DNA of 64,000 nucleotides from the NCBI RefSeq assembly GCF_028640845.1, contig NC_080543.1, positions 97,143,825-97,207,824 on the forward strand. The letters run 5' to 3'. This DNA is from Ahaetulla prasina (taxonomy: Eukaryota; Chordata; Lepidosauria; Squamata; Colubridae). Numbering within the stretch: the first letter of the stretch is position 1; each line of letters opens with the position of its first letter. Positions 1,500-62,430 of the stretch are shown here, one piece after another. Below the pieces are notes generated by a model. It worked only from the letters and a program-made list of their open reading frames with translations, was not told the DNA's origin and did not search any database. The position numbers and the translations under genes are program-made.

Positions 1500-1593
1500 C
1501 AGCACTTGAAGACCAGTCTCATTGGGATGCAGATGCTGCTGGAGGCCTGTGTGGAGATAAAGGTCCTGAAAGTGGAATGGAAGGAAGGCAAAG
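1500..1593 (+). pseudogene. ASMT: ASMT copy 1, truncated exon 2
   Basis: This is the 3' half of ASMT exon 2. It reads in frame as HLKTSLIGMQMLLEACVEIK and on to KEGKG, and aligns with the full exon 2 at 51833-52007. It ends AAAG|GTGATC, a good donor in phase 1, which matches the phase needed by exon 3 at 1963. The 5' half of the exon, equivalent to ASQLGIFDLL downstream, is not found. An in-frame TAG at 1497-1499 sits directly upstream, and sequence from about 1372 to 1497 does not resemble exon 2. Either the exon is broken or a functional exon 2 lies outside the window. Exon 1 is not visible. Confidence 0.65.
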
Positions 1594-1962
1594 GTGATCC
1601 TGTTAGCAGGAGGAAGCAGTTGTTTTAAAAAGAGCATATGGCAACCTTTTTATGGAGTTAGCAGTTTCTGATCATTTTTTCCTCATTTTTCTTTTAATTT
1701 ATTTACTGTAAAGTAGGTACACAAAGTTTTCAGTTTTGCTTATTTATTTATGTTATAAATCTTATGTCCAGAGAACTCAGCCACTTTGTTTCAGGACTGT
1801 CAGGAACTCTTTTTGGAATGCCAAATCAAATTTGAAATATTTCACCAAACTGAAATAAATTGAAATGTTTATGATGAATCTTATGCTTTGCTCATCAAAT
1901 GCATGTGGAATTCAGCAATGGTGTTTTGAAGCAATTGTTTTATAATATGCTTTCATTTTTAG

Positions 1963-2092
1963 ATCTTTATGGAAACACCGAGTTTGCCAATCTCTTTCTG
2001 GCTAAATCAAGGCCAAAGTCTCAGTATTATACCATGAAATTTCTTTCAGAAATCATATATGGATCACTGCAATACTTGCCTGAAGCTGTGAG
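1963..2092 (+). CDS. ASMT: ASMT copy 1, exon 3
   Basis: This 130-bp exon lies between tttttag (acceptor) and AG|GTAAGA (donor), entering in phase 1 and leaving in phase 2. It encodes DLYGNTEFANLFLAKSRPKS and ends LQYLPEAVR, the helical region of ASMT between the N-terminal dimerisation part and the SAM-binding domain. The match to vertebrate ASMT is by family knowledge (NTE, SPKSQY-like and DAVR motifs). The reading frame is intact. The paralogous exon at 58432-58561 has the same length and phase. Confidence 0.85.
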
Positions 2093-2797
2093 GTAAGAAT
2101 GGAGCATCGGTGAAGTAAAACATCTTTTCACCAAGAGCATGTTAGAAACCAGGATTCTTTGTAGGCTTCCTTTCCCACACAAGTAACAATTTGAGTCATC
2201 ACTTGGACGTTGCTGTTTAGTTTTTATAATTATGCACTAAATTATTCTAAAATCATAATTATTCAATACAGTTTGCCTGTTTTCTCAGCTGTCTCTCCAG
2301 AGATAAAAGAAAATCTAATAATTGAAGCTGTGCATTTGTTTAAGCATCATTCTGTGTTGCTTATTAAAGGTAGCATTTCAACAGATGCACTGGTTATGAA
2401 CTGATTACACACACCCATTTCCTTTTATACTTTCCAGTGGTGCATATTACTAATTCACTTAATCAAAATTTAATTCTTGTTCAATGTCTTTGGAAAAGAT
2501 GCCTGTACACATACAGACAAACAAAGCTAACTTGCAAAAAGAGGGGTTAAGGTTTTTAATCTGATTAAAAACTTTAAATTGTGTTAGCATTTTAATTTAG
2601 AAAGACATTTTGATGATTGAAGCAAAACTCAATATCAGAATTCGAAGAGCTTAATATTCAAAGTAAAAAAAAATCCTGGATAAAGGAATTTGTTTGGTTT
2701 TTCTACTATTTAATAATTAAAAACATAGTGACACAAGATGGGTATAAAGGTTTCAATTTAATTCACTCACTCCCCATGTTTCTATTACTGTTTAGAG

Positions 2798-3018
2798 CAG
2801 TGGTTCCCAACCTTTTTTTTGGCCATGCCCCATCTAAGCATCTCTAAAATCCTGATGTCTCCTGTGACATATAATTCTTACTATTCAAAAAGTGAACTCC
2901 TACTCATGGGGAGGAAGCCTAAAAGGCCATTAACTTGGTTTAAACAAGGTTCCAATTGCCCCCATTAAAATTCAAATTATCCCTTTGTGGGGCGTGGGCC
3001 CCATGTTGGGAACCACTG
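2798..3018. mobile_element. hAT-type MITE (CAGTGGTTCCCAACC ends)
   Basis: This 221-bp element has terminal inverted repeats CAGTGGTTCCCAACC and GTTGGGAACCACTG. It is flanked by a perfect 8-bp target duplication, gtttagag, at 2790-2797 and 3019-3026. The 8-bp duplication and CAG..CTG ends are diagnostic of hAT transposons, and the element is too small for a transposase. It lies in intron 3 of ASMT copy 1. The matching intron position in copy B (about 59250) is empty. Confidence 0.9.
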
Positions 3019-3187
3019 GTTTAGAGCCTACAATATTTTTAGAGTAACTTTTACAAGTAATACAATTCACTAGTTGAATGTAAGCACTATTTGATGCTGG
3101 GGATGAAGAAGAATATAATCACTAATGGTATTTTTGTTGATTTCATTTTTTTTTTTTGAAAAAACAAACAAAAAAAATCTGCTTCAG

Positions 3188-3256
3188 GGATGGGAAACCT
3201 CAGATTCTATCAATATATGGCATTTCTTCAAATGAGTTATATGGAGCACTGTACAG
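3188..3256 (+). CDS. ASMT: ASMT copy 1, exon 4
   Basis: This 69-bp exon follows gcttcag and ends CTGTACAG|GTAAAA. Entered in phase 2 from exon 3 it reads (R)DGKPQILSIYGISSNELY and ends GALYR, matching the EGRNQY..FG..YR segment of vertebrate ASMT. Only this frame gives the family motif; the frame giving MGNLRFYQYMAF is spurious. The exon leaves in phase 2. The next exon recognised, at 8139, needs phase 1, so an intervening exon is required but was not found. Confidence 0.8.
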
Positions 3257-3550
3257 GTAAAAGCAGTTTTTTATAACTTTGTTTTGCAAAGATTGGGCAG
3301 TAAATAGCTCTTTGGCTTTTATTATATCGCACTTTTGAGAATCTGCAAATATTTTCAGTTTTTTAGTTAGACAGAAACACTAGATAAGCAACACTAGCCA
3401 CCAACAGTGATTTGGCCAATCTGCCACAAACCGAAGCAAAGCCCAGTTTTTTTCTAACGATACTTACACTATTCCATCCAATGTATAATCACAAATTTGG
3501 AGACTAGATTGTAAACCAGTCCATCAGTCAATTTATCACCATTTTATGGA

Positions 3551-3771
3551 AATAGTAATAGCACTTAGAGTAATATACCCCTCCATAGTGTTTTACAGCA
3601 CTCTGAATGGTTTACCATGTCAGCATATTGACCCCAACAGTGTAGGTCTCATTTTACTGATCATGGAAGCATGGTAGGCTGTGTCAGCCTTGAATCCCAT
3701 CAGGATGAAATTCCAGAATGTGGGCAGAGTTAGCCTACAATGCTGCATTCTAACCACTGCACCACCCAGAG
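3551..3771 (-). mobile_element. Sauria-type tRNA SINE, degraded
   Basis: Read on the minus strand this runs from a tRNA-like head (gtggtgcagtggttagaatgc) to a tail ending gtgctattactattt. It matches the layout of the better-preserved copies at 45887-46118 and 60754-60965. The tail resembles the Bov-B-like end of Sauria SINEs. It lies antisense in intron 4 of ASMT copy 1. Confidence 0.7.
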
Positions 3772-4489
3772 TATTCTTGTGAAAAAATGGATGATTTGCA
3801 AGGAGTAGAAGGCATGGAGAGATGTGCTGAATAATGTTGATGCAATCTTGGCATGGTCTTTTTTCTCATTATTTTCTACTTCCCAACTTATCTGTTCATT
3901 ATTTCTTTGGTTTTGCATAACATTTCAAATCCTGAAAGGAATAGTATGAAAAATAGCTATATTTGAATCTTAATGAAGTATGAATAAGATATTTATTGCC
4001 CATGTCCTTTCTGTTTTATGATGGTTTTTTTTCTTCTTCTAGTCTTCAATCTCTCTTTTTCAGGACTATTCTTACAACCTGTCTCACTGACTAAGAATTA
4101 ATTTTCAAAAGACAGAACTGGAATCTATAGCTAGAACTGGATCAACCACCTCTCAATTGCTAGAAACTGCAGGGTAGTCCATTATAGGAACAAAGATACT
4201 TTCATTAATTACCCAGAGATTCTCCCAAATTTTTATCATGTATTTTGTCATGTCACATATGGAGTCACTGGTTGCAATTGCATTGTATTTGCATAGTACC
4301 AGAAATTGTTGGGATGAGCAGCCTATGGCGACTTCAAGAGGACTGAGACTGGGTCCAGTGGAGCAAGGGAGCACCCCATGTGCCTAACATGCAGACAATT
4401 TTGTCTCCCAAAAGGTGGAAAAGGGAACTAGGGGATCAGCCATATTGGACTGAATTCTCACTAGCAGAGATGAAATGATAGAAAGCATT
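3772..4489. other. Intron 4 of ASMT copy 1, no feature seen
   Basis: Positions 3893-3990 are homologous to 60366-60460, the intron after exon 4 of copy B, which supports paralogy of the two loci. I looked here for ASMT exon 5 (about 38 codons ending in a glycine-rich SAM motif) and did not find it. Confidence 0.5.
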
Positions 4490-6200
4490 GAAGTTATAGG
4501 AAACTTGGGGGAGGGGGGAGGAAATGATCATGCAATATTGGAATTCAAAATTATGCAAGCATGAGCAATAGAAAAAAAATCAAACCAGAGTCTTGGACTT
4601 CAAGAGAGCCGATTCCAATAAATTTAGAGAGAGCTTGAAGAGGATTCCATAGACCTGAATCCTCAAGGGGAAAACAACCCAAGAAGCTTAGGAAACTTTG
4701 AAAGCATAATTCCAATGAAAAAGAAAAATAAGAGATCTTCAAAGAAACCAGCATGGCTGGACAAAGAACTCTCTGATAAACTGAAATAGAAAAAGGACAA
4801 GTATAAAAAGTGGAGCACACAACTAAAGCAGAATATCATCAAATAGCCCAAATCTGCAAAGATGAAGTGAGGAAAGCTAAGGCTCAAAATGAACTAAGGC
4901 TTGCATCAAAAGTCAATAATAACAAAAAAAAAGCTTCTTTCAACATGTAAAAAACAAGAAAAAAAATCAAGGAAACGATTGGGAGAAAATGGCAAGAAGG
5001 TGACAAGAAGCAGGGAGAGACCAGAACTGTTTAATTCATTTTTTGCATATGTCCTTACCCAAAAGGGGAAAAAAACCCCAGTCTAATTTATGAAAACTGC
5101 AGATTAGGAATGCAAGTCAAAATAAGTAAGAAAATGACAAGAAAGTTCAAATCACCAGGACCAGATAGATTACATTTCAAGGTTCTGAAGGAATTGGCAG
5201 ATGTGATCTCAGAACCACTAAACTATATCTTTCAAAGATCCTGGAGCACCAGGGATCTATCAGATGACTGAAAAGAGCTGATGTAGTTCCTATGTCCAAA
5301 AAAAGGGGGGAAATGGATCCAGGAAACTACAATACTATCAGCCTGACATCAATACCTGGGAAGGTTTTAGAAAAGATAATTTATCAACAAATGTGCAAAC
5401 ACCTAGAGGCAAATAAACCAGAAGCCAAAATGGGTTTATCAAAAACAGATCATGCCAATGGAATCTTATTGAATTCTTCGACAACGTGATAAAATTAGTG
5501 GTCCAGCAAAATGCTGTGGATATAATTTACTTGGACTTCAGTAAGGCATTTGTCAAAGTAGACCACAACCTACTACTTGATAAGATAGAAAAATGTGGGT
5601 TAGATAACATCACCACCAGATAGATCTATAACTGGCTGCCCAACCACCCTCAATGTGTAGTCCTTAATGGAACTGCATCTACATGGAGTGAAGTATGCAG
5701 TGGGATATCCCAAGGCTCTGTCTTAGGCCCAGCACTCGTCAATAAAAATAAAAAAATAAAATAAAAAATAAAAATAAAAAAATAAAAATAAAAAAAAATA
5801 AAAAAAGACTATTGCTTAACATAGTGTAAGCCGCCCTGAGTCTTCGGAGAAGGGCGGGGTATAAATGTAAATTAAAAAAAATATATCTTAATCAATTATT
5901 TAGAAGAAGGGATAGAAGTAAAACTATCAAATTTGCAGATGACACCAAACTGGCAGGAATAGCCAACTATCCAAAAGATAGCCTCAAGATACAGAATGAT
6001 CTTGACAGACTTGAACCCCGGGCCCTAGCTAACAAAATGAAATTCAATGGTGAGAAGAGAAAGGTTCTACATTTAGGCAAGAAAATCAACTGCACAGGTG
6101 TAGAATAAGTGATATCTGGCTCAATAGTAGTAACTACTATATATTATATAGTAAAACTATTATAGTAAAAGTCCCTTCCAACTCTGTTATTCTGTTACTT
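4490..6200 (+). mobile_element. CR1 LINE fragment, decayed, with internal insertion
   Basis: Consecutive broken frames match CR1 ORF2. They include a KKKLLSTCKKQEKK linker, then FKSPGPD and LKELADVISEPLNYIFQRSW, then GNYNTISLTSIPGKVLEKII, and after 5890 the catalytic-loop equivalent FADDTKLAG. Stops and frameshifts are frequent. An A-rich tract and a short LINE/SINE 3' end (5741-5890) interrupt the copy. It ends near 6200 in the CR1-type 3' sequence cttccaactctgttattctg. It sits in the region where ASMT exon 5 would be expected. Confidence 0.85.
5741..5890 (+). repeat. A-rich (aaaaat)n tract plus short retroelement 3' end
   Basis: An irregular (aaaaataaaa)n tract at 5741-5805 is followed by a hairpin-forming end (gccgccctgagtcttcggag..gggcgg) at 5829-5868. 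The same end occurs in reverse at about 26757-26805 and resembles the 3' ends of the L2-like LINEs here. It interrupts the CR1 copy. Confidence 0.6.
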
Positions 6201-6262
6201 CTGTTATGTTTCTCAAATGCCAGTCCACAAGAAAGTTGGACTATTTTTGAGATTTTTCAGTT

Positions 6263-6500
6263 GAGCTGACCAACCTGGATGCATTCATGCAAGTACTGCA
6301 AGAGCAGTTTGAAGACCCCATGGCAACTCAATGTGAAGTAGCCAACATCCGTACCCCAAAGTATGGAAAGGAGCCAGCGACAGAATACATCTAAGACTTC
6401 CACAGCCTAGCTAGCCACCTGAGAGCCTGGCCGAAGTGGATGCTGGTTTGCCAATTTTGGGAAGGACTGAACAAAGAGTTATACACAACCTCCTCAAGGA
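6263..6500 (+). pseudogene. Retrotransposon gag relic (Ty3/Gypsy-like)
   Basis: One frame reads LDAFMQVLQEQFEDPMATQ, then YGKEPATEYI, a stop, then DFHSLASHLRAWP and FWEGLNKELYT. The order (FE.P, ..EYI.., ..LA..L.W, F..GL..EL) is that of capsid-type gag proteins in Gypsy-class retroelements. It is short, contains an internal stop and has no visible LTR. It could not be joined to the other Gypsy copies in the window, whose gag is different. Confidence 0.5.
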
Positions 6501-6529
6501 TAAAACCATCCCAAAGATAAAACACCCAG

Positions 6530-7135
6530 GTACAAACTGAGCAATGTAGTATATGCAGTACAATGCAGTGAGACATGTACATTGAGGAAACAAAACAACC
6601 ACTTCATAAACGCATGGCACAACATAGGAAAATATACCTACCAAGACAAGATTCAGCAGTCCAAACAGCCGTGTCTCAGCAGGGATATGACATAATCTAT
6701 CTCCAGTCTATCATACAGTCCTTTCAGCAGTTCCAAGAAGGCTCTACACCCATTTGCACCACTCAGGTAACCCTGAAGACACAGATAAACCTCCAAGTGG
6801 CCTCAATGACTCTCTAAAACAGGGGTGTCAAACTCATGGCATCATGGTGGCAATAATTGACATATTGTAACTTTTTTCCCCTTCGCTAAATTGGGCGTGG
6901 ACAACGCATGATGAATCCGGCTCGTGGGCCGTGAGTTTGACAGACCTGCTATAAAAGAATGCAAATGATCAGCTGTCTGCAAGGAATATAAATCCTTCCA
7001 TTCTCCACCCTCCAGTCAGAGCTGAAGAAACTTCTTGGATAAGAAGTAAAATGTCTTCAAAAAAAAACAAGAAGTCCAGTTGTCTCTTGAAAAAAAGTAC
7101 CTTTGACAATTCACACCAAAGTTTTGGCAGGAAGT
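6530..7135 (+). mobile_element. GIY-YIG endonuclease relic, Penelope-like
   Basis: Around 6575-6690 the frame reads YIEETKQPLHKRMAQHRK followed by QDSAVQ, the typical GIY-YIG-like C-terminal domain (YIGETKQPL..R..QH) of Penelope-like and related retroelements. From 6957 to 7135 there follows the usual 3' part (ctgaagaaacttcttggat). The preceding frame (VVYAVQCSE) is offset by a frameshift. A hAT MITE at 6820-6948 splits the copy. It is decayed. Assignment to Penelope rather than another GIY-YIG element is from memory of the motif. Confidence 0.5.
6820..6948. mobile_element. hAT-type MITE (CAGGGGTGTCAAACTC ends)
   Basis: This 129-bp element has ends CAGGGGTGTCAAACTC and GTGAGTTTGACAGACCTG. 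It is flanked by 8-bp near-identical repeats ctctaaaa (6812-6819) and ctataaaa (6949-6956). This is a common vertebrate hAT MITE type without coding capacity. Confidence 0.85.
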
Positions 7136-7436
7136 CTTCAGTTTAATAGGCTCATCCCAGGGACTTAGAATGTACGAACTCAGTCCTGGAATAATACCCG
7201 TGATGTTATGTGAATTACCAACAGACCAATTGGATGGGGTTTCTGCCATTCGCAGAAGTGACCTACAATAACTCAGTGCATTGTAGCGTTAGATTTACCC
7301 CTAGGTAAATCCACTAGGATAGAGTTCATGCCTATGCCAGAACTCTCTCAAAAGAGGCCAATGGGGTGATTGGCAGGTGCTATTTAGTTTTGATAAAGCA
7401 AAGCAATCAAGGAAAAATTGATACAAAGAATCACTG

Positions 7437-7840
7437 TATCAACCTTCCCATTTGTCACATTCAACAAAAGAAATTGCCAGCTCTTTAGATTAACCAAGAG
7501 TGTAGTTTTATTGAAAAATCCATCTAGGCACAGCAGAAGCAAAATCAGTTCTAAGATTTTTCCTGCAAAAACCCACATAGGTAACTCCCTTTTTCCCCTC
7601 TGGGCCACCCACAGTTCACCAATTGAGTTCAGTTCTTTTGCTTTGGAAAAACTGTCTGCTTTGGTCAAAAACGTTCTTCATTCCTTGGGCTTGTTGCATA
7701 ACCCCGGCAACAGACGGTTCACTTGCATTCCACAGCCTCCCTCTACCCTTAAGAATTTGCCACCCTTCCACTGTCACTGTTTGGCAAAGCTGCAAGAAAG
7801 CAGGTACAGGCAACTGTGCAGAGCTGAGTCAAGTTTGACA
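7437..7840 (-). mobile_element. Possible solo LTR
   Basis: The block is bounded by an exact 5-bp repeat, cactg, at 7432-7436 and 7841-7845. On the minus strand it begins TGTCAAACTTG, contains AATAAA (complement of 7507-7512) and ends GGTTGATA, a mutated CA end. There is no coding sequence. The atypical end keeps confidence moderate. A different boundary (TGTCAC at 7453) gives better termini but no target duplication. Confidence 0.4.
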
Positions 7841-8138
7841 CACTGGATGGGAGTCGATTGGGAAATAATATCCAGTAGGATAGATGTTAAAATAAATTAA
7901 TGAATTTCTGAGCATAGTAAAAGGACAGTAATAAAAATATAACCTTGAAATGAATCACATGATATATTTTAATGAACATATTTGTTTAAATCACAATATT
8001 ATATGACTGCTTAGTCCAGTAAAACAATGAGGTAAGTTTAAAAAGACATGATAAATATTCTAGTAAACTATTTAAAATGTTGACATGCAGGATATTTTTT
8101 CTTACATAGTTTCTTTCTTTTTTTGTTCTTTTTTCAAG

Positions 8139-8279
8139 GAAGTAGCGGTGGCTTAGCTAAGGAATTTATTTCAAAGTATTCAAATTGTACTGTGACACTT
8201 TTTGATCTTCCTGAAGTTATGGAAATATCTAAAAAATATAATGCATTTTCAGATGGATCCCAAATCACTTTCCATGAAG
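8139..8279 (+). CDS. ASMT: ASMT copy 1, exon 6 (SAM-binding domain)
   Basis: This 141-bp exon follows ttttcaag and ends CATGAAG|GTAATA, entering and leaving in phase 1. It encodes (G)SSGGLAKEFISKY, then NCTVTLFDLPEVMEIS and QITFHEG. The glycine-rich start is motif I of class I SAM methyltransferases, and TLFDLPEV is the strand carrying the acidic residue that binds the SAM ribose. The reading frame is intact. The first part of motif I (DLG) belongs to exon 5, which I could not find. Joining exon 4 directly to this exon would give a frameshift and an immediate stop. Confidence 0.9.
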
Positions 8280-8864
8280 GTAATATTTGTTTGGCCGTTT
8301 ATGCAAAATGAAAATGAATATATATCATCATAGGCTTTGCAGCATAATTTTCTGTGGGTAGAGAAGTAAATGTATAACATCGACAGTAGTATTTCCATTT
8401 AGTTGCTTACAGAAGTATGCTTTTATAGCCTATTTTAAATCTTTGCCATCTGGTGTTAAAAAAGCCCATGCTTTTTGTTTTATAATATTAATGGATGCTG
8501 CTAAGCTCTTTCTTACCCATAAAGCTCATTACATTACCAGTCAGTGAAATGATTAAGATCTTTCTTTAGACTGGGAAAAGTCTAGCTTAAGAAGTGTACA
8601 GTGATTCAGTTTTAACTTATTTTTGAAAAAGCTTCTGAGAAATATTTTGAGTTTTCAAATAAAATATTAATGAATGGGAAGGCAGAAATTCATATTACCA
8701 ATGAAGGTAATATTTGTTTAGAAACAATATCTCTGGCATTTCAAAAAACACTTCTGAAAGAAGCTAGTAGCATTTTCGAGCCAAATCTTCAAAGGGGAGA
8801 ATAAATTCTGTTTCCAAGGTGATAATAGATTCCTACCTTATTAAAGGATTTATTCTTTTTGCAG
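8280..8864. other. Intron 6 of ASMT copy 1
   Basis: This 585-bp AT-rich intron has canonical gt/ag ends. No repeat or other gene is recognised. Confidence 0.6.
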
Positions 8865-8987
8865 GGGATTTTTTTAAAGATCCAATTCCTGAAGCAGATC
8901 TTTACCTCTTATCAAGAGTCTTGATTAACTGGAATGATGAAAAGTGTATCCAGCTACTTACCAAAGTATTTACAGCCTGTAAGCCAG
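8865..8987 (+). CDS. ASMT: ASMT copy 1, exon 7 (catalytic segment, key residues changed)
   Basis: This 123-bp exon lies between tttgcag and AAGCCAG|GTAGGC. It encodes GDFFKDPIPEADLYLLSRV then LINWNDEKCIQLL and TACKPG, the most conserved part of ASMT and related plant and animal O-methyltransferases. In characterised ASMT the segment after RVL is HDW, where His (255 in the human enzyme) is the catalytic base and Asp is its neighbour. Here it is INW, so both polar residues are lost. The frame and splice sites are intact, so expression is conceivable, but classical N-acetylserotonin methylation seems unlikely. Confidence 0.9.
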
Positions 8988-9527
8988 GTAGGCATATTCA
9001 CATTGCTAGAAAGAGAAAAACTGCCATTGTGAATGGGAAGTCAAGCAAGCCAATCAGGGCCCACCATGGCTTTTTTATATATTTGCAACAACCTTTGACA
9101 CTATACAGATAGTGCTTGACTTATGACTTTAAATGGGCTCAGAATTTTGATTGTAGGTCATTGCAGTCATTAAGAGAGTGACCACATGACCGCTTCACTT
9201 TGCTCACTAACCACACTCCTTACTCTTCCAGTTGGACTTGTTAAGCAGTTGTATGAATCAGTAAATAGGCAGAATGAAAACCGGATGCCAAAAGAGGAGA
9301 GGCAGTTCCTCCCCATACATGGAAGGGAATCTTTGCACTGGGATGCAGAAAAGAAGCCTGAAAGATCTGATATATGATGGAATGTAGTAGGGCACTACAT
9401 TCCACTTCCTAGGAAGGAGTAGGAATATTCCATAAGAGTAGGCATTCTGAGCAGCAAGGGTGCATATTCCAGAAGAGTAAAAGACAACTCAATTCAGTAG
9501 TTCCCAGAATGCATGGTTCATGTAGGT

Positions 9528-9620
9528 AGAATAGAATAGAATAGAATTTTTTATTGGTCAAGTGTGATTGGACACACAAGGAATTTGTCTTAGTGCATAT
9601 GCTCTCAGTGTACATAAACA
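9528..9620 (-). mobile_element. Snake1/L3-type LINE 3' tail with (AATAG)n
   Basis: On the minus strand it reads ..gcatatgcactaagac..ttccttgtgtgtccaatcac and ends in a short (ATTCT)n run, antisense to the better tails at 12300-12425 and 47710-47814. It is a strongly 5'-truncated copy. Confidence 0.8.
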
Positions 9621-10421
9621 GTGTAGTGTCCTGCTTTAGCTTGGCAAGATTCTGTGTATACATATAGAACAATAAACAGATCAGTTTGGAAGAATCATTA
9701 TGTGTGTTTTATTGTTTTTGGAGCCTTGCAGATCTTTGTTGGGAACTTCTGTGCTAGGACAGAGAAAGGGAACTCAGATCTTTGGGATCCAAGTTTCTTT
9801 TCTACAACCGACTGCAAAGGATTATTTCTTCTCTATCTTGTATGGCATCTTTTGCACTGGCCTAGAGAAACTCTTTAGGATCTGAGCTTCTTTTTTTGGC
9901 CCAACAATAGGAGTTCCCCTCTGCTCTGTGTACAGGAGAGAACTACTGTGGTTGGCCAGAGAAAGAGAACTTTTGGCCTTCAGGCCCTGATTCCTTTCTC
10001 CACCCATACTGGAGATCCCCTCTGCTCCATGTGGTAGCCTTTCTATCCTTCAAAAACATCAGTTTGCTAGCTGTTTGGCTTTTCCTCATATTGGCCTAGC
10101 TCATCTGTCAGCAGCTGCACAAAAAGATAAATGTAGTAGACCAGGGCTAGTGCAGCAGGGAGAAAGCCTGGGACTTCTGCGTGGTTGGGGCTACATGGGC
10201 ATGGACCAGACTCTAAGACCATGGCAATTTTGTGTGTGCTGGAAGGCTAGTTGGGCAACTGATCTGTGAGGAAGAGATTGGTGAGTGGGATATAGTAGTA
10301 GCACCTGAGGTGTAAGTACTGGTGTGTGCTACCAAGTAGCAAAATTTTAATCATATGACTGTGGGGATAATGCAAAGCCATAACTTTGCCCAGAGTTGCC
10401 TCTAGATCATATGGGTGGCAC

Positions 10422-11100
10422 CAGTGGTGAAATCTGAACCGATTTGCTACTGGTTTGTTGGCCGTGCATGCGCGCTGCGTGCCAAGCGTGCACTGCATGC
10501 GCATGTGCAGTTTGCACCATAAGTGCGCTGTGTGTGCATGCACAGTACACATCAAAGGAGGCTTGGGAAGGTAAGTAGAAGAGTGAGGGGGGAGAATCAG
10601 CTGTAGCTGGGAGCCTTTTTAAAAACCTTTTTAAATCATTTTTTACTACCTTTCGGGCAAATAGGTAGTAAAAAAATGCTTTAAAAAAGTTAAAAAAAAA
10701 GGCTCAGACCATTGCGCAGCACAGCTGTGATCTTGGGAACTTTTTTTTTTACCCTTTTAAAGCATTTTTTTACAACCAGTTCCGGTGAATAGGTAGTAAA
10801 AAATGCTTTAAAAAAGCAAAAAAAAAAAAAAAGGCTTGGATGATCACAGCTGTCCCACGCGATCATCCGAGCCTTTTTTTTTTTACTTTTTTAAAGAATT
10901 TTTTACTACCTATTCACCTGAACTGGTAGTAAAAAAATGCTTTAAAAGTGTTAAAAAAAAGTTCCAACAATCACATTTTGCTCAGTTGATTGTCAGTACT
11001 TTTCTTTTAACATTTTTTTTTACTACCGGTTCAGTGAACCAGTAGCATTTTTACTTCCAGTTAGGGCGAACCAGCCCGAACTGGTAGCATTTCACCCCTA
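10422..11100. mobile_element. hAT element of the CAGGGGTGAAAT family, foldback interior
   Basis: Ends CAGTGGTGAAATCTGAACC and GGTAGCATTTCACCCCTA are inverted repeats. The flanks ggtggcac (10414-10421) and ggtgacac (11101-11108) are 8-bp target duplications with one mismatch. The interior repeats a module built around tttttactacct and aggtagtaaaaa in both orientations, at least four arms between 10640 and 10940, so single strands could fold extensively. No transposase frame is present. The family recurs at 17512, 59405 and 61264. Confidence 0.8.
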
Positions 11101-50302: not shown

Positions 50303-50375
<73 letters not shown>

Positions 50376-53170: not shown

Positions 53171-56100
53171 ATGTCCGGCTACACACCGCCAGCGCCATTC
53201 GACCCAGCTAAGGAAAAATGGGGTCATACATGGCTCGTTCGAGTGTTTCCTGAGTGAAACGAACTTCAAGGAGTTTCAGACAACAGGAAATGAGCGTATT
53301 TCCTGAGCCACTGCGGTCCAGAAGTTTTCGACACGAGAATCCCTGGCGAGCCAACGCCGTACAGTCGGTACCGTGGCAAACTCTGCAGACTTTATTGAAA
53401 GCCCATTATGCACCAACGCCTCCAAATATGTGCAACGGTTGAATTCGGGAGCGCAGACAGCAGGGCGAGTCCATCAGCGCATACATGGCCGCCCTGAGGA
53501 AAGCCTCAAAACATTGTGAGTACCGAGACTTGGATGAGGCATTGCTGGAGCAACTCATCCGGGGTCAGGGACATCCGTTTGCGGGCGGCTGCTATCCAAA
53601 AGCAACCTAACGCTGGCAAACGCCTTGGACGAAGCCAGGGCTCACGAGATGTCTACCCAAGCGGCGGAAACCCTACAAAAGCAGGTCGCACCAACGGCTG
53701 GTGTGAAATCAACCCCGGTCCACAATGAACAGGTCCAGGCCGAATCGGACGGTGAGGAGGAGGAAGGAGTCTTCCACACCGGGAGGCGGAGAAAGAAGAC
53801 CGGGTGACTGCGCGAGTTATGGAGGGCAACACCAACGACAACAATGCAGATTTAAGGATGCAACTTGTCGGCGGTAAAGAAGGAAGGGCACCTAGCACAG
53901 GTCTGTCGAGCACCCCAACCTTCCTGCCAAAAATTCAACCCGACCAACCAGAGCGCGGGAACGGCGAAGCGGTCCGTGATTGGTCAATTCAAAAAAGGCG
54001 CGAAGTTGAATCAGACTGTCGTGAGAGTGGGTCACGCAACAACACGCCTAGAAAAAATCTTTACAAAGCAAAGATTGAGGGGTGCCGTGCCGATTGGAGG
54101 TGGACACCGGCTCAGCGATCACGATCATGTCCTGGGACACTCTCGTGAAAGCCTTACCCGCCATCGCGCGCAAGCTGAAAACACAGAAATTAAAGGTACA
54201 AGACTACCAAGGAATCGCATCCCTGTTCGAGGGGTAGCGTCCGTCCGCCGAGTATGGACAATACGAAAACTCTGCCCATCACCACCGTCAATGGGACCAT
54301 GCTAAGCTAGTTGGGAATGGACTGGTTCGGAGCACTGGTCATGAGAGTGAGCGAAATCTTCATAAACGAAGTCGACCTCAAAGACGCACTCATGAAGAAT
54401 TTGGGGACGTTTCAGAGACTGCCTGGGCAAGTACACGGGACCCCTATTTCTTTTAACTTAGACCCCAAGTTGCCCTATCCGTCTAAAGGCTAGGAGGGTC
54501 CGTCGCCCTAAAGCCCAGGATTGACCGGGAACTGGACAAGCTAGTAAACCAGGGAATTCTAGTGCCAGTTGACCATGCTAAGTGGGAGACCCCTATAGTC
54601 ACCCCAGTCAAACCGGACGGGTCGGTCCGGATTTGCGCTGACTATAAGGCAACGCTTAACAAAGCGTTGCAAAAGAGTGCTTACCCCGTCCCGGTGGTAC
54701 AGCACTTACTGCACTCAATGGGGCAAGGGCAAGTTTTTGCCAAGTTAGACTTGGCCCAAGCCTATCAACAGCTGTAGATAGCAGCACAGCCAAGCGCAGA
54801 CAATTGTGACTACAGAGGGCTTTTAAGTGTACCCGGTTACAGTTTGGGGTTAGTGTGGCTCCAGGGTTATTTCAGAACCTAATGGAGCGGCTACTGCAGG
54901 GACTACCAGGGGTGGTACCATACTTTGACGATGTACTGGTATCCGCTGAGAACCTAGAGGAATTAGGGGTAAGGCTGCGAAAAGTTTTGGGCATTTTCCG
55001 GTCTGCCGGTCTCACAGTTAAACTGAACAAATGCCAGATCGGGGTTGAGTCTGTGGAATTCCTGGGCTACCGGATAGACAGGAAGGATTCACCCACTGAG
55101 ACAAAGGTACGGGCCATCAGGAAGGCCCGGTTCCAAAGAACAAAACAGAGTTGCAGGCATTCTTAGGTCTGGTAATTCTACGCGGTATTCTTAAGGAATA
55201 AGGCAACAGTAGCCGAGCCGCTGCATAAATTACTAGCAAAGACGGCTGCATGGTCTTGGGGAAAGGCGGAAGCTAGGGCATTCAAGGGGTAAAGAATCTC
55301 CCATCGAGTGATAGCCTCCTTATCCAATACAATGGCACGCCATTGGTGTTGTTGCGATGCATCTCCCTATGGGGTGGGGCTGTGCTCAGCCACAGGTTGC
55401 CAAATGGCACAGAAGCCCCTATTGCATACTACTCCCGAACCATGTCATCAACTGAAAGGAATTATAGCCAGCTTGATAAGGAAGCCTTGGCTATAGTCTC
55501 AGGAGTAAAGAAATTCCATGAATATGTATTTGGTCGTGATTTGAAATCATCACGGACCATAGACCTTGCTAGGCCTGTTGGCAGGCGACGCCCAACGCCC
55601 GTGGCACTTTCGCCCAGACTGACCAGATGGACTATCTTCCTGGCAGCTATTCTTACAAATTACTACACCGGCCAGGAAGGAATTAGGGCATGCAGACGCC
55701 TGAGCAGATGCCCGTTACCAGAGACTATCGAAGACCCCACTCCGGGGACACCAGTTCTGCTAATTGACTCTTGGGACTCTGGCCCAGTCACATCCAAAGA
55801 GGTGGCTCGGCTTCGTATAAGGACATTACAATAAGGACTGTAATTGGTTGGGTACAGCTGCGCCGGGCGGCTGCTTTAAGAGTTTGTAAAACGTGGGAAC
55901 TCTCGCTCAAGGGGTGCCTGCTATGGGGGATCAGTGGTGATCCCGGAGAAATTGAGGAAAAGGTATTGATCCTTCACGAGGGCCACCCAGGGATCGTGAG
56001 AATGAAGGGTCTAGCGAGAAGCTATGTGTGGTGGCCCTTAATGGACACGGAAATTGCTGAAAGGGTAGGAAATGCCAGGCCTGCCAGGAGTCCAGACCGC

Positions 56101-57130
56101 TACCCCAACGGCCCGATTCGAATGGGAGAGACCCCAGGGCCCTTGGTCTAGGATCCATATCGATTTTGCCGGCCCTTCCACGGCCAAACCTTTCTGGTAG
56201 TAGTCGATGCCTACTCCAAATGGCTGGAAATCATTCTCATGAGATCCATGACAGCCGAGGCCGTGATTTCAGTCCCACGGCACCTATTTGTAACCCACGG
56301 GTTGCCCGACACTTTAGTCTCCGATAACGCCCGCAATTCACGGCAACCCAGTTTGAGGGTACTTGGCAGAGGAGGGCATCCGCATGTCCTCTCGGCGCCT
56401 TTCCACCCTGCGAACGGCCTTGCAGAACGCTTGCTCGGAGCGCAAAGGAAGCATTGTCCAGAATCAGGCCAGGCGATTGGCAAACAAAATCGATACATTC
56501 CTAGCAGTCCAACACAGAACCCCTGTGTAACAACTGGCGCAGCCCGCAGAGCTATTAATGGGTCGGAAGCTTAGGTGCCCACTAGACCGTTTAAACCCAA
56601 ACTACACACCAGACGGTTACAAAGGGGCACACGGTAAAACAAGAGGATGGCAGTAGGCAACCTAGTGTGGGCACACAACTACAGCGAGGCCCGACCTGGT
56701 TAGCAGGAAAAATCCTAGAAATAACAGGACCAAAATCATATCTAGTAGAGATAGAGGATGGCCGGGTATGGAAGCGCCACATAGACCAAATAAGGAAACG
56801 ATAACCGTAAATCAGAATCAGATAAACAGGCCCTGACTATCAATGTTTGAATACACAGCTGACTCAAACCCGGGGCAAACGCGGGACTTATCTGAGTTCC
56901 TGGAGGTCCAGCGACGCCAATCGGTTCCTCCTGAAAACAGCAGGGACGACTCTGCAAATAATCCAGGGCCGGATGGCCTAGAGGAGGAATAAACAGTCCC
57001 TCCGGTCAGCTCGACTCACTCCCAGAAAATGAATTGCGCAGGTCCGAAAGAGTCAGGAGACGCCCAGTCTACTTGCGTGATTATGTTGAAAAATAAGATG
57101 TTAATTCTATGTAAATATTGGTAAAGTGCT
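53171..57130 (+). pseudogene. E2 gag-pol, multiply frameshifted
   Basis: Recognisable parts in order are the gag start, gag linker (EARAHEMSTQAAETLQKQ), RT (VDHAKWETPIVTPVKPDG, FAKLDLAQAYQQL; then APGLFQNLMERL and YFDDVLVSAENLEEL), RNase H (YYSRTMSSTERNYSQLDKEA, VKKFHEYVFGRD) and integrase (HPGIVRMKGLARSYVWWPL, AEAVISVPRHLFVTHGLPD). At least ten frame changes are needed. It retains YFDD-flanking residues and VEFLGYRID that E1 has lost. Confidence 0.88.
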
Positions 57131-57147
57131 TTCTGGGAGGGAAGGAG

Positions 57148-57337
57148 TGTAATGTATCTTTAAGAGTTGTGGAGGGAAAACTGAGCGGGAAAAAGCACGT
57201 TGCTGATTGGATGAAGCCTCTGGCTAAACTGTATATAAAGAGAAGGTTTTCCCAGCCCGGATTGCTGGGTTCACCATATAGTAAAGAGCTGTTGTCACTA
57301 TCCTGGTCTCCTGCCTCGTTATTGCCCGAATCTAACA
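57148..57337 (+). repeat. E2 3' LTR (190 bp)
   Basis: Preceded by the purine tract gggagggaaggag and followed by the target duplication gatat. Confidence 0.95.
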
Positions 57338-58105
57338 GATATCATCACAAGATGGAAGATGTTCCGAGTAAAGCCACCTTTTGCAATTGACTGATGGAGA
57401 ATTTGTCAGTTCCAATGGTGTTCAAGTGGTGCACCAGTAGTTTTGGAATTGCACGCAAGGTGCCTATTACTATTGATACTACCTTTGCCTCCTTTTGCCA
57501 CACTTGTTCTATTTCTATTTGTAGTCTTTGTATTTTGTTATCTTCTCCAGTTTTTTCTCTTCTGTTCTGCTGTCTCCAGGCACTGCCACATCTACTATCC
57601 AGACTTTTTTGTCTTTCTAATAAACAGTTAAGTCTGGGGTGTTATGTGACAGGTGCCTGTCTATTTGAATTTGAAAGTCCCAGAACAATTCAGCTTCTTC
57701 ATTTTCTATTGTTTTATTTTACGGTTCCACTATTTCAGCTGTGTACCTAATTATTGGAATTTCCAAGGTGTTGATTGCCTTAATGGTATTTTCTCCATTG
57801 AGTTGGACTTTAAGATCTTCTTCACTCTCTTGATCTATTCACCTCTAATCTTTTTCTTGACTTCAGTATGCCTGATGTTGTCAGTTTGAAGGATAACCAG
57901 GTATTTGTAGTAATCATCTTTATCCAGTCTCTTGATGTTATTTTCTTAGGGTATTTTGATTCCTTTAGTTTTCACTATTTCCCCCCGCTTGATGGTGATA
58001 ATGTACTGCTCCGGATAGACACAGTATAACATAATCAAGTTTTGGGTGCTCTAACACTGGAGGTTTTTAAGAAACATTTCTCTGAAGAATTATTTCCTGC
58101 CTGAC
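57338..58105 (-). mobile_element. R4/Dong-like LINE, polymerase part (right of E2)
   Basis: Minus-strand pieces read IITIKRGEIVKTKGIKIP, KRLDKDDYYKYLVI, EVKKKIRGEYIKRVKKIL-like and SMEKIPLRQSTPW-like, the part after the RT catalytic core, then IVIGTLRAIPKLLVHHL and QLQKVALLGTSSIL nearer the tail. An internal deletion at about 57731 removes the cysteine/histidine region kept in the other duplicate. Confidence 0.6.
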
Positions 58106-58431
58106 TTGAACTAGAAGTCCTCTAAGGTCTCTCCAAACTCTGTTACTTGTTTGTTGTTATTCAGTTTTGCTTACTGATTTGTTATATTTTAAATTGACAT
58201 GGTATGTTCAGAGATCTTGGCCACTTTGTTTCAAGATTATCAGGAACTATTTTTGGAATGCCAAATCAAATGTTTTGAGTTTGATGACTGAAATATACTG
58301 AATATTATATGAATTAAATAAACTGAAATGTAATCATTTATAATGAATCTTAGGCTTTGCTCATCAAATGTATGTGGAATTCAGAAATGGTGTTTTGAAG
58401 TAACTGTCTTATAATATCCTTTCATTTTCAG

Positions 58432-58561
58432 ATTTTTATGGAAACATAGAGTTTGCAAATCTCTTTCTGGCTAAATCAAGCCCAAAGTCTCAGTATCATA
58501 CCATGAAGTTCCTTTCAGAAAATATATATGAATCACTGCAATACTTGCCTGAAGCTGTAAG
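58432..58561 (+). CDS. ASMT: ASMT copy B exon 3
   Basis: A 130-bp exon between ttttcag and AAG|GTAAGA with the same phases as copy 1 exon 3. It encodes DFYGNIEFANLFLAKSSPKS, then QYHTMKFLSENIYESLQYL and PEAVR. The frame and splice sites are intact. SSPKSQYH is closer to known ASMT sequences than SRPKSQYY of copy 1, so copy B may be the more conserved paralog here. Flanking intron sequence (ccactttgtttca..ggaatgccaaatcaaat) is shared with copy 1 at 1780-1830. Confidence 0.85.
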
Positions 58562-59392
58562 GTAAGAAGGGAACACTGGTGAAGTAAGAATCTTTTCACC
58601 AAGAACATGTTAGAGACCAGGATTCTTTGTGGGCTGCCTTTCTCACACAAGTAACAAAGATTTGCATCCTCACTTAGGGATTGCTGTATCATTTTTACGA
58701 TTATGCATTAAATTATTCTAAATTATCATCATTCAATATAGTTTTTCTCAGCTGTCTCCTCTGAGATCAAAGAACTAATAACCTTTGAACCTGGGGATTT
58801 AACCAACCATAGAATCATCATTCTGTGTTGCTTACAAAAGGTGGAGTTTCAACAGATTAATTGATTACACGCCCATTTCCTTTTGGTGTTTTCAGTGGTG
58901 CCTGTTACTTGTCCATTTAATCAATATTTTATTCTTGCTCAATGTCTTCAAAAAAGTTGCCTATATACATAGACATAGAAAGCTAATTTGTAAAAAGATA
59001 AGTTAAGCTTTTTAATCTGATTAAAAGTTTAGGAAGACACTTTGATGATTGAAACAAAACTCGGTAGATCAAATATCAAAATTCAGAGAGCCTAATATTG
59101 AAAGTAAAAAAAAATAATCCTGCAAAGGATTAGTTAAAGTAATTTGTTTGGTGATAATACTATTTAGTAATAATAATAATAAAAAATAGTGAAACAAGAT
59201 GGATACAAAGATTTCAATTTAATTCATTCACTTCACGTCTTTCCATTACTTTTTAGCTCCTGTAATAGTTTTGAAGTAATGATTGTCTATTTGAATATAT
59301 ATTTGATTCTGGAGATTTAAAAGAATATAATCACTACTGGTATTTTTGTTGCTTTCAATTTTTAAAAAATAAAACAAAAGAATCTGCTACAG
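58562..59392. other. Intron 3 of ASMT copy B
   Basis: Homologous to 2093-3187 of copy 1 throughout, but without the hAT MITE found there at 2798-3018. No other feature. Confidence 0.7.
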
Positions 59393-60325
59393 GAATGGGA
59401 AACCCAGGGGTGAAATCTAAAAATTTTCCCTATCGGTTCTGTGGGCGTGGCTTAATTGGTGGGTGTGGCTTGGTGGTCACATAACTGAGTGGGCGTGGCC
59501 AATAACAATAAATAATAAAAATAATAAACAAAGTATAAAAAACAATAAGAGGTTCCAAAAACCAACTTTTACACTTTACACATACACAACAAAACACAAC
59601 TGACTCACACACACACACACAATACCACATACAGCTTTCTGAGCTTTTGTGTGTTTGTGTAGTTAGAGTGAAACACTACAGAAACACCAAATCTCAGAAA
59701 GCTGCACAAATATTTTATTTTATTATTAAGGTTTATGGACTTCAATTCCCAGAGTTCCTCAGCCAGCAAAGCCAGCCAGCATTAGTTGCTCAGTGATGAA
59801 ATAGATTAGCTAAGTTTAGATTAGTTCCGTCTGGTGCTGAAAGTGAAACTGGAGCTTTCGGGCTGGGAAAAAAGCCATGCGGTCAATCAGTAATCAGGTA
59901 AGTACCTTAGAATTTCTTAAAATGTTTTCTACAGAAAACATGTTTTTTAAGGTTCTGCTGATGAGGAACTCAGGTGAGATCACCAGAGGAGCCTTATTTT
60001 TTTTTTTAAGTTTAAAGGCTCTGCCGATCTCACCTGAAGAGCGGGATCCTCAAAGGCTTTTTTTTTTTACTTTTAAAGGCATGTTTCAGCTGAAGAAAAA
60101 CCTGTTTTTAAAAGTTAAAAAAAAACCCTCTGTTGATGGTGCGGCTCAGCAGAGGTGGGGGGGCGGGGCCAGGGATTTTTGCTACCGGTCCTCTGAACCA
60201 GCAGCTGCCATCGCTACCGGACCGTGTGAGCCGGTCCGAACCGGGAGCATTTTACCCCTGGAGAAACCTCAAATTCTATCAATATGTGGCATTTCTTCAA
60301 AGGAAGTTTATGACGCACTATATAG
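59393..60325 (+). pseudogene. ASMT: ASMT copy B exon 4, split by a hAT element
   Basis: The exon starts after ctgctacag with GAATGGGAAACC (59393-59404), is cut by the element at 59405-60260 and its 8-bp duplication, and resumes at 60269 to end TATAG|GTAAAA. Without the insertion it would read (R)NGKPQILSICGISSKEVY and DALYR, a good match to vertebrate ASMT. The insertion plus duplication is 864 bp, a multiple of three, but brings stops in frame. Unless spliced out, it disables copy B. Confidence 0.85.
59405..60260. mobile_element. hAT element (CAGGGGTGAAAT family) inside an ASMT exon
   Basis: Ends CAGGGGTGAAATCTAAAA and GAGCATTTTACCCCTG; target duplications gggaaacc (59397-59404) and gagaaacc (60261-60268). 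The interior has gtgggcgtggcttaattgg and a (CA)n run at 59597-59622, and shares these with the element at 61264-62278 in opposite orientation. No transposase. Confidence 0.92.
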
Positions 60326-60753
60326 GTAAAAGTAGCATTTTTATTACTTTCTTTTGTAAAAATCATCTGTTCATTATTTCCTGGGCTTTGAATAAAGTTG
60401 CTACCCTGAAAAGAATAATATGAAAACTAGCTATGGGTGGCTCTTAGTGAAGCATGAATAAGCATGATGTATCCCTCCACTATAATATCCACACTGGAAG
60501 AAAATAATTTATGTTAAAAAGAGTCTTGAGTTTTTTTTAATTGTGCAGGAGTTTACCTGTTGCCCAAGGTAGCTTACTTCATTACTTACAAGATCAATGT
60601 CTATATACTGTGGAGCATCTGATCAGTTGATGTTAGAATGCCTACTAGGCCTCAGTTGTAAGAAACAATAAAATACAGCACTTTGGGGGGAAGGTGCCTA
60701 TATGCTTGTCAGACCTAAAAGTTAGAACAGACCAGAAAACCATGGGTACACAA
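60326..60753. other. Junction of copy-B intron 4 with block-C upstream sequence
   Basis: 60326-60460 matches the intron after exon 4 of copy 1 (3893-3990); from about 60466 on it matches 17110-17510 of block A, which lies before an exon-2 relic. The switch marks an old duplication junction. Confidence 0.6.
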
Positions 60754-60965
60754 GAAATAGACTTATATACCACTTTCTAGCACTTTCCAGCCCTCTCTAA
60801 GCAGTTTACAGCATATTGTCCCCAACAATTTGGGTCCTCATTTTACCCATTTCAGAAGGATGGAAGGCTGAGTCAACTTTGAGCCTGGTGAGATTTGAAC
60901 TGCCAAATTGCAGACAGCTGGCAGTCAGCAGAAGTAACCTTTAACCACTGTGCCACTGTGGCTCA
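60754..60965 (-). mobile_element. Sauria-type tRNA SINE
   Basis: On the minus strand: gagccacagtggcacagtgg head, tRNA-like promoter, cagccttccatccttctgaa body and tail ending tatataagtcta. Absent from block A at the matching place. Confidence 0.8.
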
Positions 60966-61199
60966 TAGTAAGGGAATCTTGCAAAAATGTTTATGTAATA
61001 TCTTCTCTCTCCAATGGCCCATTTTATCAAGGAGGAGTCAGATCAAGTCTAATTTCCCAGGGCTGAAGAGATACTTCTGTTCTTGGTTCTGTAACAGCTT
61101 TTGAATATTCTGTTCAAATCCAGATCCACAGCTCTCTATAATGTTCCAGATCTTGCTTGCAGATTGGGTTACAAGACAACCATAACACCTCAGGGTTTG

Positions 61200-62430
61200 T
61201 TCCATGGCTGTGGCTATCAGAAATCAAGTGGAACCCTAAGAGAGTCGAGCAAACAATTATTCTCAGGGGTGAAATGCTCCCGGTTCGGACCGGCTCATGC
61301 GATCTGGTAGCAATGGCAGCTGCTGGTTCGGAGGACTGGTAGCAAAAATCCCTGGCCCCGCCCCCTGCCTCTGCTGAGCCGCATCATCAGCAAAGGTTTT
61401 TGTTTTTTTTACTTTTAAAAGCAGTTTTTCTTCAACCAAAATATGCCTTGAAAAGTAAAAAAAAAATCCTCTGATGATCGCAGGGCTGAGCAGAGATCAT
61501 CAAGACCCTTTAAAAGTTTTTTTTAAAAAACCCTCTTCAGCCGAAGGGGAGATAAAAGAAAAAAAAAGAGGTTTTAAAAGCCTCCTCTGGCAATCCCAGA
61601 GGAGTTTCCTGATCTTCACAGGCTTTTAAACTCACTTTTTAACAGCCCCCACTTACAAGAGCCCCCATCCATACACAGCCAATTCCCCCTCCTCACTTAT
61701 TTATAATTACTGCTCCTTTCGGCAACGGCATGCTTTTTCTTCAGCTACTGATTACAGTTTGCTTTGACTTCCTGCTTTGCTGATGAGGAATTCTGGGAGT
61801 TGAAGTCCACAAACTAAGTTACTAAGGTTGGAGACCCTGATCTAAAAAAAATAAATAAAAATAATAAAATAAAATATTTGTGTAGCTTTCTGAGATTTGG
61901 TGTGTTTCTGTAGTGTTTCACTCTAACTACACACAAAATCTCACAAAGAAGTATGTGGCATTGTGTGTGTGTGAGTGAGTCAGTTGTGTTGTGTGTGTGT
62001 AAAGTGTGAAAGTGTGAGGTTCCTGCTTGTTGCAGGGGCCATTTTGGGTGAAGTGCAGCTGCTTTTACATTGTGTGTGAGTCAGTTGTGTTGTATTGTGT
62101 GTGTGTAAAGTGTGAAAGTTGGTTTTTGTACTTCTTATTGTTTTGTATACCTTATTTATTATTTTTATTATTTATTGTTATTGGCCATGGCCACCCAGTC
62201 ATCTGACCACCAAGCCACGCCCACCAATTAAGCCACGCCCACAGAACCGGTAGAGAAATTTTTTAGATTTTACCCCTGATTATTCTCCACAACTTTTGCC
62301 AAACTCTTGAGCACCAGCCCCAATAGGATACAGTAACCCGTTGTAGAGGCCAGTGTGAGATTAAAGCCCCTGACATTGGACTAAAAAGATGGAAGAGTTA
62401 TCCCATGAGATGCAGGAAGCAATTGGAATA
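61200..62430 (+). pseudogene. ASMT block C, exon-2 relic split by a hAT element
   Basis: 61210-61263 and 62287-62430 together align with exon 2 at 51833-52007: agagagtcgagcaaacaatt / attctccacaacttttgcc against agagagtcagaggaactact / atcctttacaactgtagc, then ccccaataggatacag against tctcaatgggatgcag, and gagattaaagcccctga against gagttaaaggtcctga. The frame is lost (TAA in the ASMT frame) and the donor is gone. Recognition is by alignment of DNA, so moderate confidence. Confidence 0.6.
61264..62278. mobile_element. hAT element (CAGGGGTGAAAT family), 1015 bp
   Basis: Ends CAGGGGTGAAATGCTCC and AGATTTTACCCCTG; perfect 8-bp target duplication attattct at 61256-61263 and 62279-62286. It contains tandem and inverted A/T-tract modules, gt-rich repeats (61955-62110) and agccacgcccaccaattaag near the right end. 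No transposase. Confidence 0.93.

Follow-up and report, generated by a model that had tools for sequence, protein, structure and literature searches.

Acetylserotonin O-methyltransferase (ASMT) catalyses the last step of melatonin synthesis. Here, we analyse a window of 64,000 nucleotides from the snake Ahaetulla prasina (NCBI RefSeq assembly GCF_028640845.1, contig NC_080543.1, positions 97,143,825 to 97,207,824), in which four ASMT-like gene remnants, called A, C1, B and C2, lie on the same strand. The window is very probably a decayed stretch of a tandem, birth-and-death multigene family of ASMT-like genes. The array itself is an ordinary graveyard of such a family. The interest lies in the family, which is multiplied in squamates and includes a snake clade without the usual catalytic residue, with full-length proteins in many species.

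Several described systems resemble this locus. A 2017 survey gives tetrapods one ASMT gene (PMC6151645), and the two asmt genes of fish are contrasted with tetrapods (PMC7010912). The teleost duplicates ASMT1 and ASMT2 are ascribed to genome duplication and ASMTL to fusion with maf (PMC6151645, PMC7010912). They are duplicated ASMT-family genes with divergence between the paralogues, as are the genes here. Unlike the teleost duplicates, many ASMT-like copies of one snake are on contigs of equal size. Unlike ASMTL, none of the 120 listed relatives of copy A has a Maf domain in its Pfam list, checked with what we take to be the Maf accession.

ASMT inactivation in Cetacea is reportedly the subject of a mammalian study. 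Regression of melatonin genes is described in placental mammals, together with crocodylians (PMC7613276), and inactivated ASMT-family genes are likewise seen here. The mammals lose the canonical gene, whereas in the snakes extra paralogues decay and the listed species keep the canonical one.

The canonical ASMT, or HIOMT (human 4A6D; snake P0127, P0130 and P0203), has the same Pfam domains as the window copies, Methyltransf_2 and Dimerisation. His255, Asn302 and Phe135 are all present in these three snake sequences, whereas the A-type proteins lack His255 and Asn302, and the window copies fall in squamate ASMT-like clades outside the canonical one. RedM, DnrK and SibL are COMT-type methyltransferases that lack the catalytic histidine like the A-type snake proteins (PMC10784701). 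Most A-type proteins share with RedM an Asn-Trp after the histidine position, RedM SNW aligning with snake FNW, and most have a tyrosine at the probable place of DnrK Tyr142. However, RedM, DnrK and SibL are bacterial, and the snake protein P0003 is 45–52% identical to canonical vertebrate ASMT and 22–24% to RedM. To our knowledge, the snake proteins without the histidine have no known activity.

Targeted searches of the open-licence PMC literature on snakes, squamates and reptiles found no description of an ASMT expansion in squamates, nor of the array, which the original prediction had believed undescribed. Thus, as far as searched, the squamate-multiplied ASMT-like family is undescribed.

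Four remnants on one strand

The exons were located by tblastn with ASMT proteins and the intron homology by self-alignment of the window, which contains no N letter. The copies are as follows.

1501–12201, plus strand: copy A, ASMT-like remnant (tblastn and self-alignment)
17114–21332, plus strand: copy C1, ASMT-like remnant
41401–60462, plus strand: copy B, ASMT-like remnant
60465–62888, plus strand: copy C2, ASMT-like remnant

All four have disabling changes or are mere scraps, and exon 5 was detected in none by tblastn of the window with ASMT proteins. At least four partial copies on one strand had been predicted, and self-alignment and tblastn recover every named element in the predicted order: 2'-3-4-6-7-8 at 1501–12201, 2' and 4' near 19387 and 20998, 2-2-3-4 at 46175, 51833, 58432 and 60261, and 2' at 62280. 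Exon 1 of B, at 41401, had been missed. The decay is borne out by lost exons, an exon insertion, a lost donor, frameshifts and stops.

Copy A comprises these exons.

1501–1593, plus strand: 3' part of exon 2, the 5' half missing, donor GTGATC intact (tblastn)
1963–2092, plus strand: exon 3, open, with intact splice sites (tblastn, splice-site check)
3188–3256, plus strand: exon 4, open, 100% identical over 24 amino acids to protein P0001 of Pantherophis
8139–8279, plus strand: exon 6, with GSSGG of the S-adenosylmethionine (SAM) site (tblastn, splice-site check)
8865–8987, plus strand: exon 7, in which Ile-Asn stands in place of human His255-Asp256 (tblastn)
11993–12201, plus strand: exon 8 with stop codon, AATAAA following at 12246 (tblastn)

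Exons 3, 4, 6 and 7 are flanked by AG and GT and exon 8 by AG and the stop, and the phases fit the vertebrate ASMT plan, represented by what we take to be the human one. The joined exons match human ASMT 4a6d (E 2e-69), and the composite reaches 130.8 bits with PF00891 (Methyltransf_2, cut-off 22.3) and 30.5 bits with PF08100 (Dimerisation, cut-off 25.6). The canonical signature is absent, since Ile-Asn occupies human 255–256 and Ile human 302. The detected exons contain neither a stop nor a frameshift, and a direct splice from exon 4 to exon 6 breaks the frame. With two snake exon 5 peptides, no exon 5 was found within 3257–8138, where the best tblastn match covers 10 residues on the opposite strand at 18.5 bits, a chance level. 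A stop after exon 4 was considered as a disabling mutation and rejected, as it is intronic and past a good donor.

Copy B contains an internal repeat.

41401–41466, plus strand: exon 1 with ATG (tblastn E 3e-8 with exon 1 of Pantherophis P0001)
46175–46348, plus strand: first instance of exon 2, with a frameshift and donor GG (tblastn, splice-site check)
51833–52007, plus strand: second instance of exon 2, open, donor GG (tblastn, splice-site check)
58432–58561, plus strand: exon 3, open, with intact splice sites (tblastn, splice-site check)
59393–59404, plus strand: first 12 bases of exon 4 (sequence inspection; alignment to A 3055–3199)
59405–60260, no strand assigned: insertion in exon 4, ends CAGGGGTG/ACCCCTG (8-bp target duplication, one mismatch)
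60261–60325, plus strand: remainder of exon 4 (tblastn, self-alignment)
43927–48627, plus strand: repeat unit 1, carrying a roughly 1-kb insertion at 46827–47814 (self-alignment)
49581–57736, plus strand: repeat unit 2, containing a long terminal repeat (LTR) element (self-alignment)
52882–57337, plus strand: the LTR element in unit 2 (190-bp LTRs 99.5% identical, 5-bp target duplication)

GG replaces the GT donor after both instances of exon 2, and exons 2–3 match PF08100 with 54.9 bits. The insertion in exon 4 is presumably hAT-like. The two units differ at 14 of 2882 aligned bases (99.5% identical; 98.1% with gaps counted) over 43927–46826 versus 49581–52485 and are 99% identical in their last 391 bases, while unit 1 shows the empty site of the LTR element of unit 2. 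The repeat may have arisen by recent duplication, or else in the assembly. Exon 2, with 177 bases, holds 5 of the 14 differences (Fisher p 0.001, the test being picked after seeing the data), and this cluster could be a small gene conversion. An inverted LTR-element fragment at 48962–49583, whose end adjoins unit 2, may mark how the duplication arose.

C1 and C2 are scraps.

17114–17700, plus strand: upstream part of C1, with 17114–17596 homologous to C2 60465–61129
19387–19547, plus strand: remains of C1 exon 2 and of the intron after it (tblastn; shuffle test against exon 2 of A and B)
20998–21332, plus strand: C1 exon 4 remnant (20998–21068) and start of intron 4 (tblastn; shuffle test against A)
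60465–62888, plus strand: C2 remnant, broken by a stretch like a short interspersed element (SINE) at 60758–60954 and by an element at 61260–62278 (self-alignment)
62280–62396, plus strand: remains of C2 exon 2, which contain stops and a frameshift and match best in the snake clade that keeps His255
60463–60464, no strand assigned: junction from B intron 4 to C2, with matches to A up to 60462 and to C1 from 60465

The copies are homologous outside the exons. Between A and B, the non-coding match 1727–2795 to 58158–59256 is 76% identical (E 3e-172), and a second piece pairs 3050–3203 with 59269–59407, with no match between the two pieces. Between C1 and C2, 17114–17454 matches 60465–60785 with 72% identity (E 3e-37), followed by 17423–17596 to 60955–61129, 19409–19547 to 62359–62485 and 20088–20361 to 62633–62888. 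The intron matches quoted in the original prediction (2093–3187 to 58562–59392, and 17110–17510 to 60466–61080) thus hold, in pieces. Unlike processed pseudogenes, the copies have introns, which are homologous between them. Four same-strand copies with common intron sequence make a head-to-tail array, which exchange would have produced.

We compared 13 sequence pairs with 300 dinucleotide shuffles per pair, and 8 pairs beat all shuffles. These are intron 4 of A with that of C1 and of B, exon 4 of C1 with that of A, the start of C1 with that of C2, and exon 2 of C1 and of C2 each with that of A and of B. The other 5 pairs did not. For C1 intron 4, 234 of the 300 shuffles are as good against B intron 4, so that link of C1 runs through A alone, and 168 are as good against the C2 start. 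For A intron 4, 112 are as good when the whole is set against the C1 start, and its tail (A 3989–4500) is equalled by 131 against C2 and 61 against C1.

B matches A intron 4 up to 60462, whereas A past 3988 fails against 60463 onward. The failed comparisons with the starts of C1 and C2 support a true junction at 60463–60464. A diverged continuation of intron 4, suggested by a gapped alignment that crossed the switch, was rejected with A 3989–4500 at the shuffle level. As C2 takes over from B intron 4 at 60463, exons 5–8 of B and the front of C2 have been lost from here. In the self-alignment, the sequence after 60465 matches B intron 1 nowhere except in the SINE-like stretch. The switch predicted near 60460 is real, though its 'intron 1' type follows only from the position before exon 2'. 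The elements 59405–60260 and 61260–62278 are related, hAT-like and opposite in orientation; this inverted pair, about 1 kb apart, flanks the remainder of B exon 4 and the C2 junction.

Place in the snake family and origin of the array

The copy A protein gave 217 matches, of which the best 120 were listed, mostly named acetylserotonin O-methyltransferase-like. Anolis canonical ASMT gave 1807 and P0061, a snake protein keeping the histidine (His clade), gave 1325, again with 120 listed each, and the latter search added further ASMT-like rows. Tree 1 has 120 rows (human, chicken, copies A and B, and 116 of the 120 proteins, with at least 280 amino acids). Tree 2 has 101 rows (99 proteins hand-chosen from 239, copy A and human). 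Tree 3 has 59 rows (58 hand-chosen from the 239, and copy A) and leaves out columns 255–256.

The copy A search leads, among the matches listed, to a large squamate ASMT-like family. In all three trees, A falls inside a snake ASMT-like clade and outside the canonical ASMT clade. It pairs with the full-length P0001 of Pantherophis guttatus, with Shimodaira–Hasegawa-like approximate likelihood ratio test (SH-aLRT) support of 99 in tree 2 and support of 100/99 in tree 3. The two are 93% identical over 253 columns (251 in the tree 3 alignment), the closest among the matches listed. P0001 would be the orthologue of A, which would then have broken late, within its own lineage.

B is inside a snake clade of 33 rows without His255 (SH-aLRT 100, tree 1), and its exon 1 scores 60.1 bits with the non-His clade versus 39.3 with the His clade. 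Residue 255 of B itself is unreadable, as its exon 7 is absent from the window. By placement and score, A and B are members of the snake ASMT-like clade without His255, an old paralogous lineage. C2 exon 2, a short match, scores best with the His clade at 35.4 bits, followed by lizard (29.6) and non-His (24.3) proteins. C1, also with short matches, gives 23.5 versus 20.8 bits in exon 2 and 28.5 versus 24.3 in exon 4 for the His versus the non-His clade. By these scores, the snake clade keeping His255 would be the likelier place for C1 and C2.

The canonical gene is elsewhere. Snake P0127, P0130, P0187 and P0203, matches of the Anolis query, fall in the canonical ASMT clade of tree 2. A loss of canonical ASMT in snakes, tried as an idea, is thus rejected, and these proteins indicate a separate canonical gene kept in snakes. 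Erythrolamprus reginae has at least 13 ASMT-like clusters among the matches listed, 8 of the non-His and 5 of the His clade; they are clusters at 90% identity and no gene count. All 13 and the canonical P0130 have an equal longest contig of 139,269,582 and would lie on one chromosome. Squamates including snakes carry, by their database relatives, many ASMT-like genes with seemingly automatic names, in contrast with the one-gene survey (PMC6151645). Searches for snake 'ASMT' can catch paralogues or pseudogenes, a source of error when the loss or retention of melatonin is studied.

The Kimura two-parameter distance (K80) between A and B is 0.138, 0.179, 0.182, 0.266 and 0.292 in five non-coding blocks, and that between C1 and C2 is 0.216, 0.451, 0.249 and 0.210 in four, one of which includes the exon 2 remnant. 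In exons 2 and 3, A and B differ by 0.095 and 0.099, lower than in every intron block, though over 220 bases only. As the exons are less diverged than the introns, at least one of the A and B lineages was probably under coding constraint for a time after their split.

A neighbouring pair of an A-type and a C-type gene would have been duplicated as a block, probably through unequal crossing-over. The similar A/B and C1/C2 divergences fit one such duplication. Later deletions would have removed A exon 5, half of A exon 2, and B exons 5–8 along with the start of C2. Insertions would have destroyed copies, with the hAT-like one in B exon 4 and others of LTR and CR1-like elements. The latest step would be the doubling of a 5-kb segment of B that includes exon 2. 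Some points weigh against this history. The C1 assignment hangs on short, weak matches (margins of 2.7 and 4.2 bits), and the intron 4 sequence of C1 matches that of A but not that of B. The two divergences are alike, not equal, and are sensitive to the gap treatment. Moreover, we infer both the orthology of P0001 and the tandem origin by crossing-over.

The original prediction had instead proposed repeated unequal exchange within one ASMT locus, that is, a single gene with repeatedly duplicated internal exons. Exon 2 is truly doubled within B by the 5-kb repeat, and B passes into C2 with no 3' end between, as such a gene would have it. However, A owns a 3' end (stop and AATAAA) and B owns an exon 1, the best scores of A/B and of C1/C2 point to separate snake clades, and A has a full-length probable orthologue, all of which make the single gene very unlikely. 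The separate clades, the full-length P0001 and the separate canonical ASMT argue for neighbouring members of a multigene family, partial mainly through deletions and insertions. The tandem kinship was rightly seen, but one locus is too narrow a frame for copies from distinct paralogue clades.

Within the multigene family, A could still be a working gene, with an exon 5 changed beyond recognition and an exon 2 upstream of the window. In favour of this, exons 3, 4, 6, 7 and 8 are open and well bounded by splice sites, and A is close in sequence to P0001. But a P0001-like exon 5 should stand out at 93% identity while the best match is at chance level, the frame breaks without exon 5 and exon 2 is cut inside its coding part, so a working A is improbable. 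A possible, if rather doubtful, reading of the repeat in B is an assembly artefact, two haplotypes being placed serially, one with a heterozygous LTR insertion. The unit differences are judged near an allelic distance, and each unit bears an insertion missing from the other. Yet the window has no N, 953 bp including the inverted LTR fragment separate the units, and the sequence past unit 1 (48628) differs from that past unit 2 (57737). Even if true, the artefact leaves A, C1, B and C2 standing.

Residue 255 and the fold

Residues were counted in a 120-protein alignment with human ASMT numbering, in which one gene can be represented by several isoform or fragment rows. The non-His set comprises the 38 snake rows that do not belong to the His clade. 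These represent 13 snake taxa, and 21 of the rows have at least 335 amino acids. We take His255 to be catalytic and Asn302 to act on the substrate in human ASMT. Residue 255 is present in 36 of the 38 rows and is F in 16, Y in 16, V in 2, I in 1, L in 1 and H in 0. Histidine is found there in 28/29 rows of the His clade, 15/15 canonical and 39/40 lizard ASMT-like rows.

The non-His rows are monophyletic, with 28 rows at 99 SH-aLRT in tree 2 and 25 including A at 100/98 in tree 3. The boa Candoia enters the clade through a single partial protein, P0050 (239 amino acids). P0058 of Erythrolamprus reginae has Leu at 255 and is placed inside the His clade, apart from the non-His rows. Given the one clade and P0058 elsewhere, His255 appears to have been lost twice, P0058 representing a second, independent loss.

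The SAM-site positions are largely kept in the non-His rows (Asp185 in 33/37, Gly188 in 36/36, Asp236 in 34/36), as is an Asn at 256 (33/36), while position 189 is Ser or Asn in 34/36 of them and Gly or Cys in the canonical rows. Asn302 occurs in 0/38 non-His, 0/27 His-clade and 0/40 lizard ASMT-like rows and in 11/15 canonical ones. As it is missing also from the His clade and the lizards, the substrate pocket probably changed earlier than the histidine. The site beside the histidine seems to drift in lizards too, where the Asp that canonical ASMT has at 256 is replaced by Cys in 11/40 and by Leu in 4/40 rows (P0066, P0070, P0074, P0098 and others).

In the alignment with DnrK, the Tyr of exon 4 SIYG, at human Phe135, faces a tyrosine of DnrK; as the numbering of chains 7oy1 and 1tw2 is shifted by 6, the DnrK residue would be Tyr142. 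Tyr is at this position in 21/26 non-His, 26/29 His-clade, 10/36 lizard and 0/15 canonical rows, with Phe135 in 2/26 non-His ones. By analogy, this Tyr of the capping helix may be a lead as a stand-in for the lost histidine. Against it, 12 of the 38 non-His rows are gapped at 135, mostly proteins without exon 4, and a further five carry a different residue. In copy B the residue is Cys, and the tyrosine of RedM itself lies in a gap. Snake models without exon 4 include P0002, P0005, P0012, P0025, P0028, P0051 and others, for which splicing, loss of the exon or the annotation may be responsible.

Crotalus tigris P0003 was modelled with AlphaFold2 from a 54-row alignment, and the model has a mean predicted local distance difference test score (pLDDT) of 90.1. 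Its best PDB match is 4a6d with a template modelling (TM) score of 0.92, and RedM comes next. The ASMT fold is thus predicted to be kept in the non-His clade, as modelled for P0003.

Tentatively, and with somewhat less than even confidence, we suggest that snakes evolved a private, expanding ASMT-derived family without the catalytic histidine before the split of boas and colubroids, perhaps after the Tyr gain, a Tyr found likewise in most members of the sister snake clade with His255. It might now perform another reaction or use another substrate through the ASMT fold and the SAM site, in parallel to RedM, DnrK and SibL, and the window would be a burial ground beside possibly working genes. 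If the clade is functional, it would be a vertebrate O-methyltransferase family that switches catalytic residues while multiplying.

Repeats in the window

Many self-matches of the window look like transposable elements, judged by copy pattern, open frames and motifs. Several groups were thereby rejected as members of the array: 12605–15525, 33443–36323, 30413–31941, 28144–29278 and 17704–19156 as CR1-like, 15524–16930, 38405–39757 and 5144–6135 as a repeat family, 21635–26091 and 52882–57337 as LTR elements, 59405–60260 and 61260–62278 as hAT-like, and 45905–46070, 51567–51729, 60758–60913 and 3551–3692 as SINE-like.

A direct tandem duplication at 26828–29278 and 29282–31764, with 2.45-kb units head to tail and 96.7% identical over 2438 aligned bases, has no ASMT match. 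The LTR element 21635–26091 is of the same family as 52882–57337, and its LTRs are identical over 183 aligned bases with a 7-bp gap. Its open frame 21885–23816 has aspartyl protease and reverse transcriptase domains.

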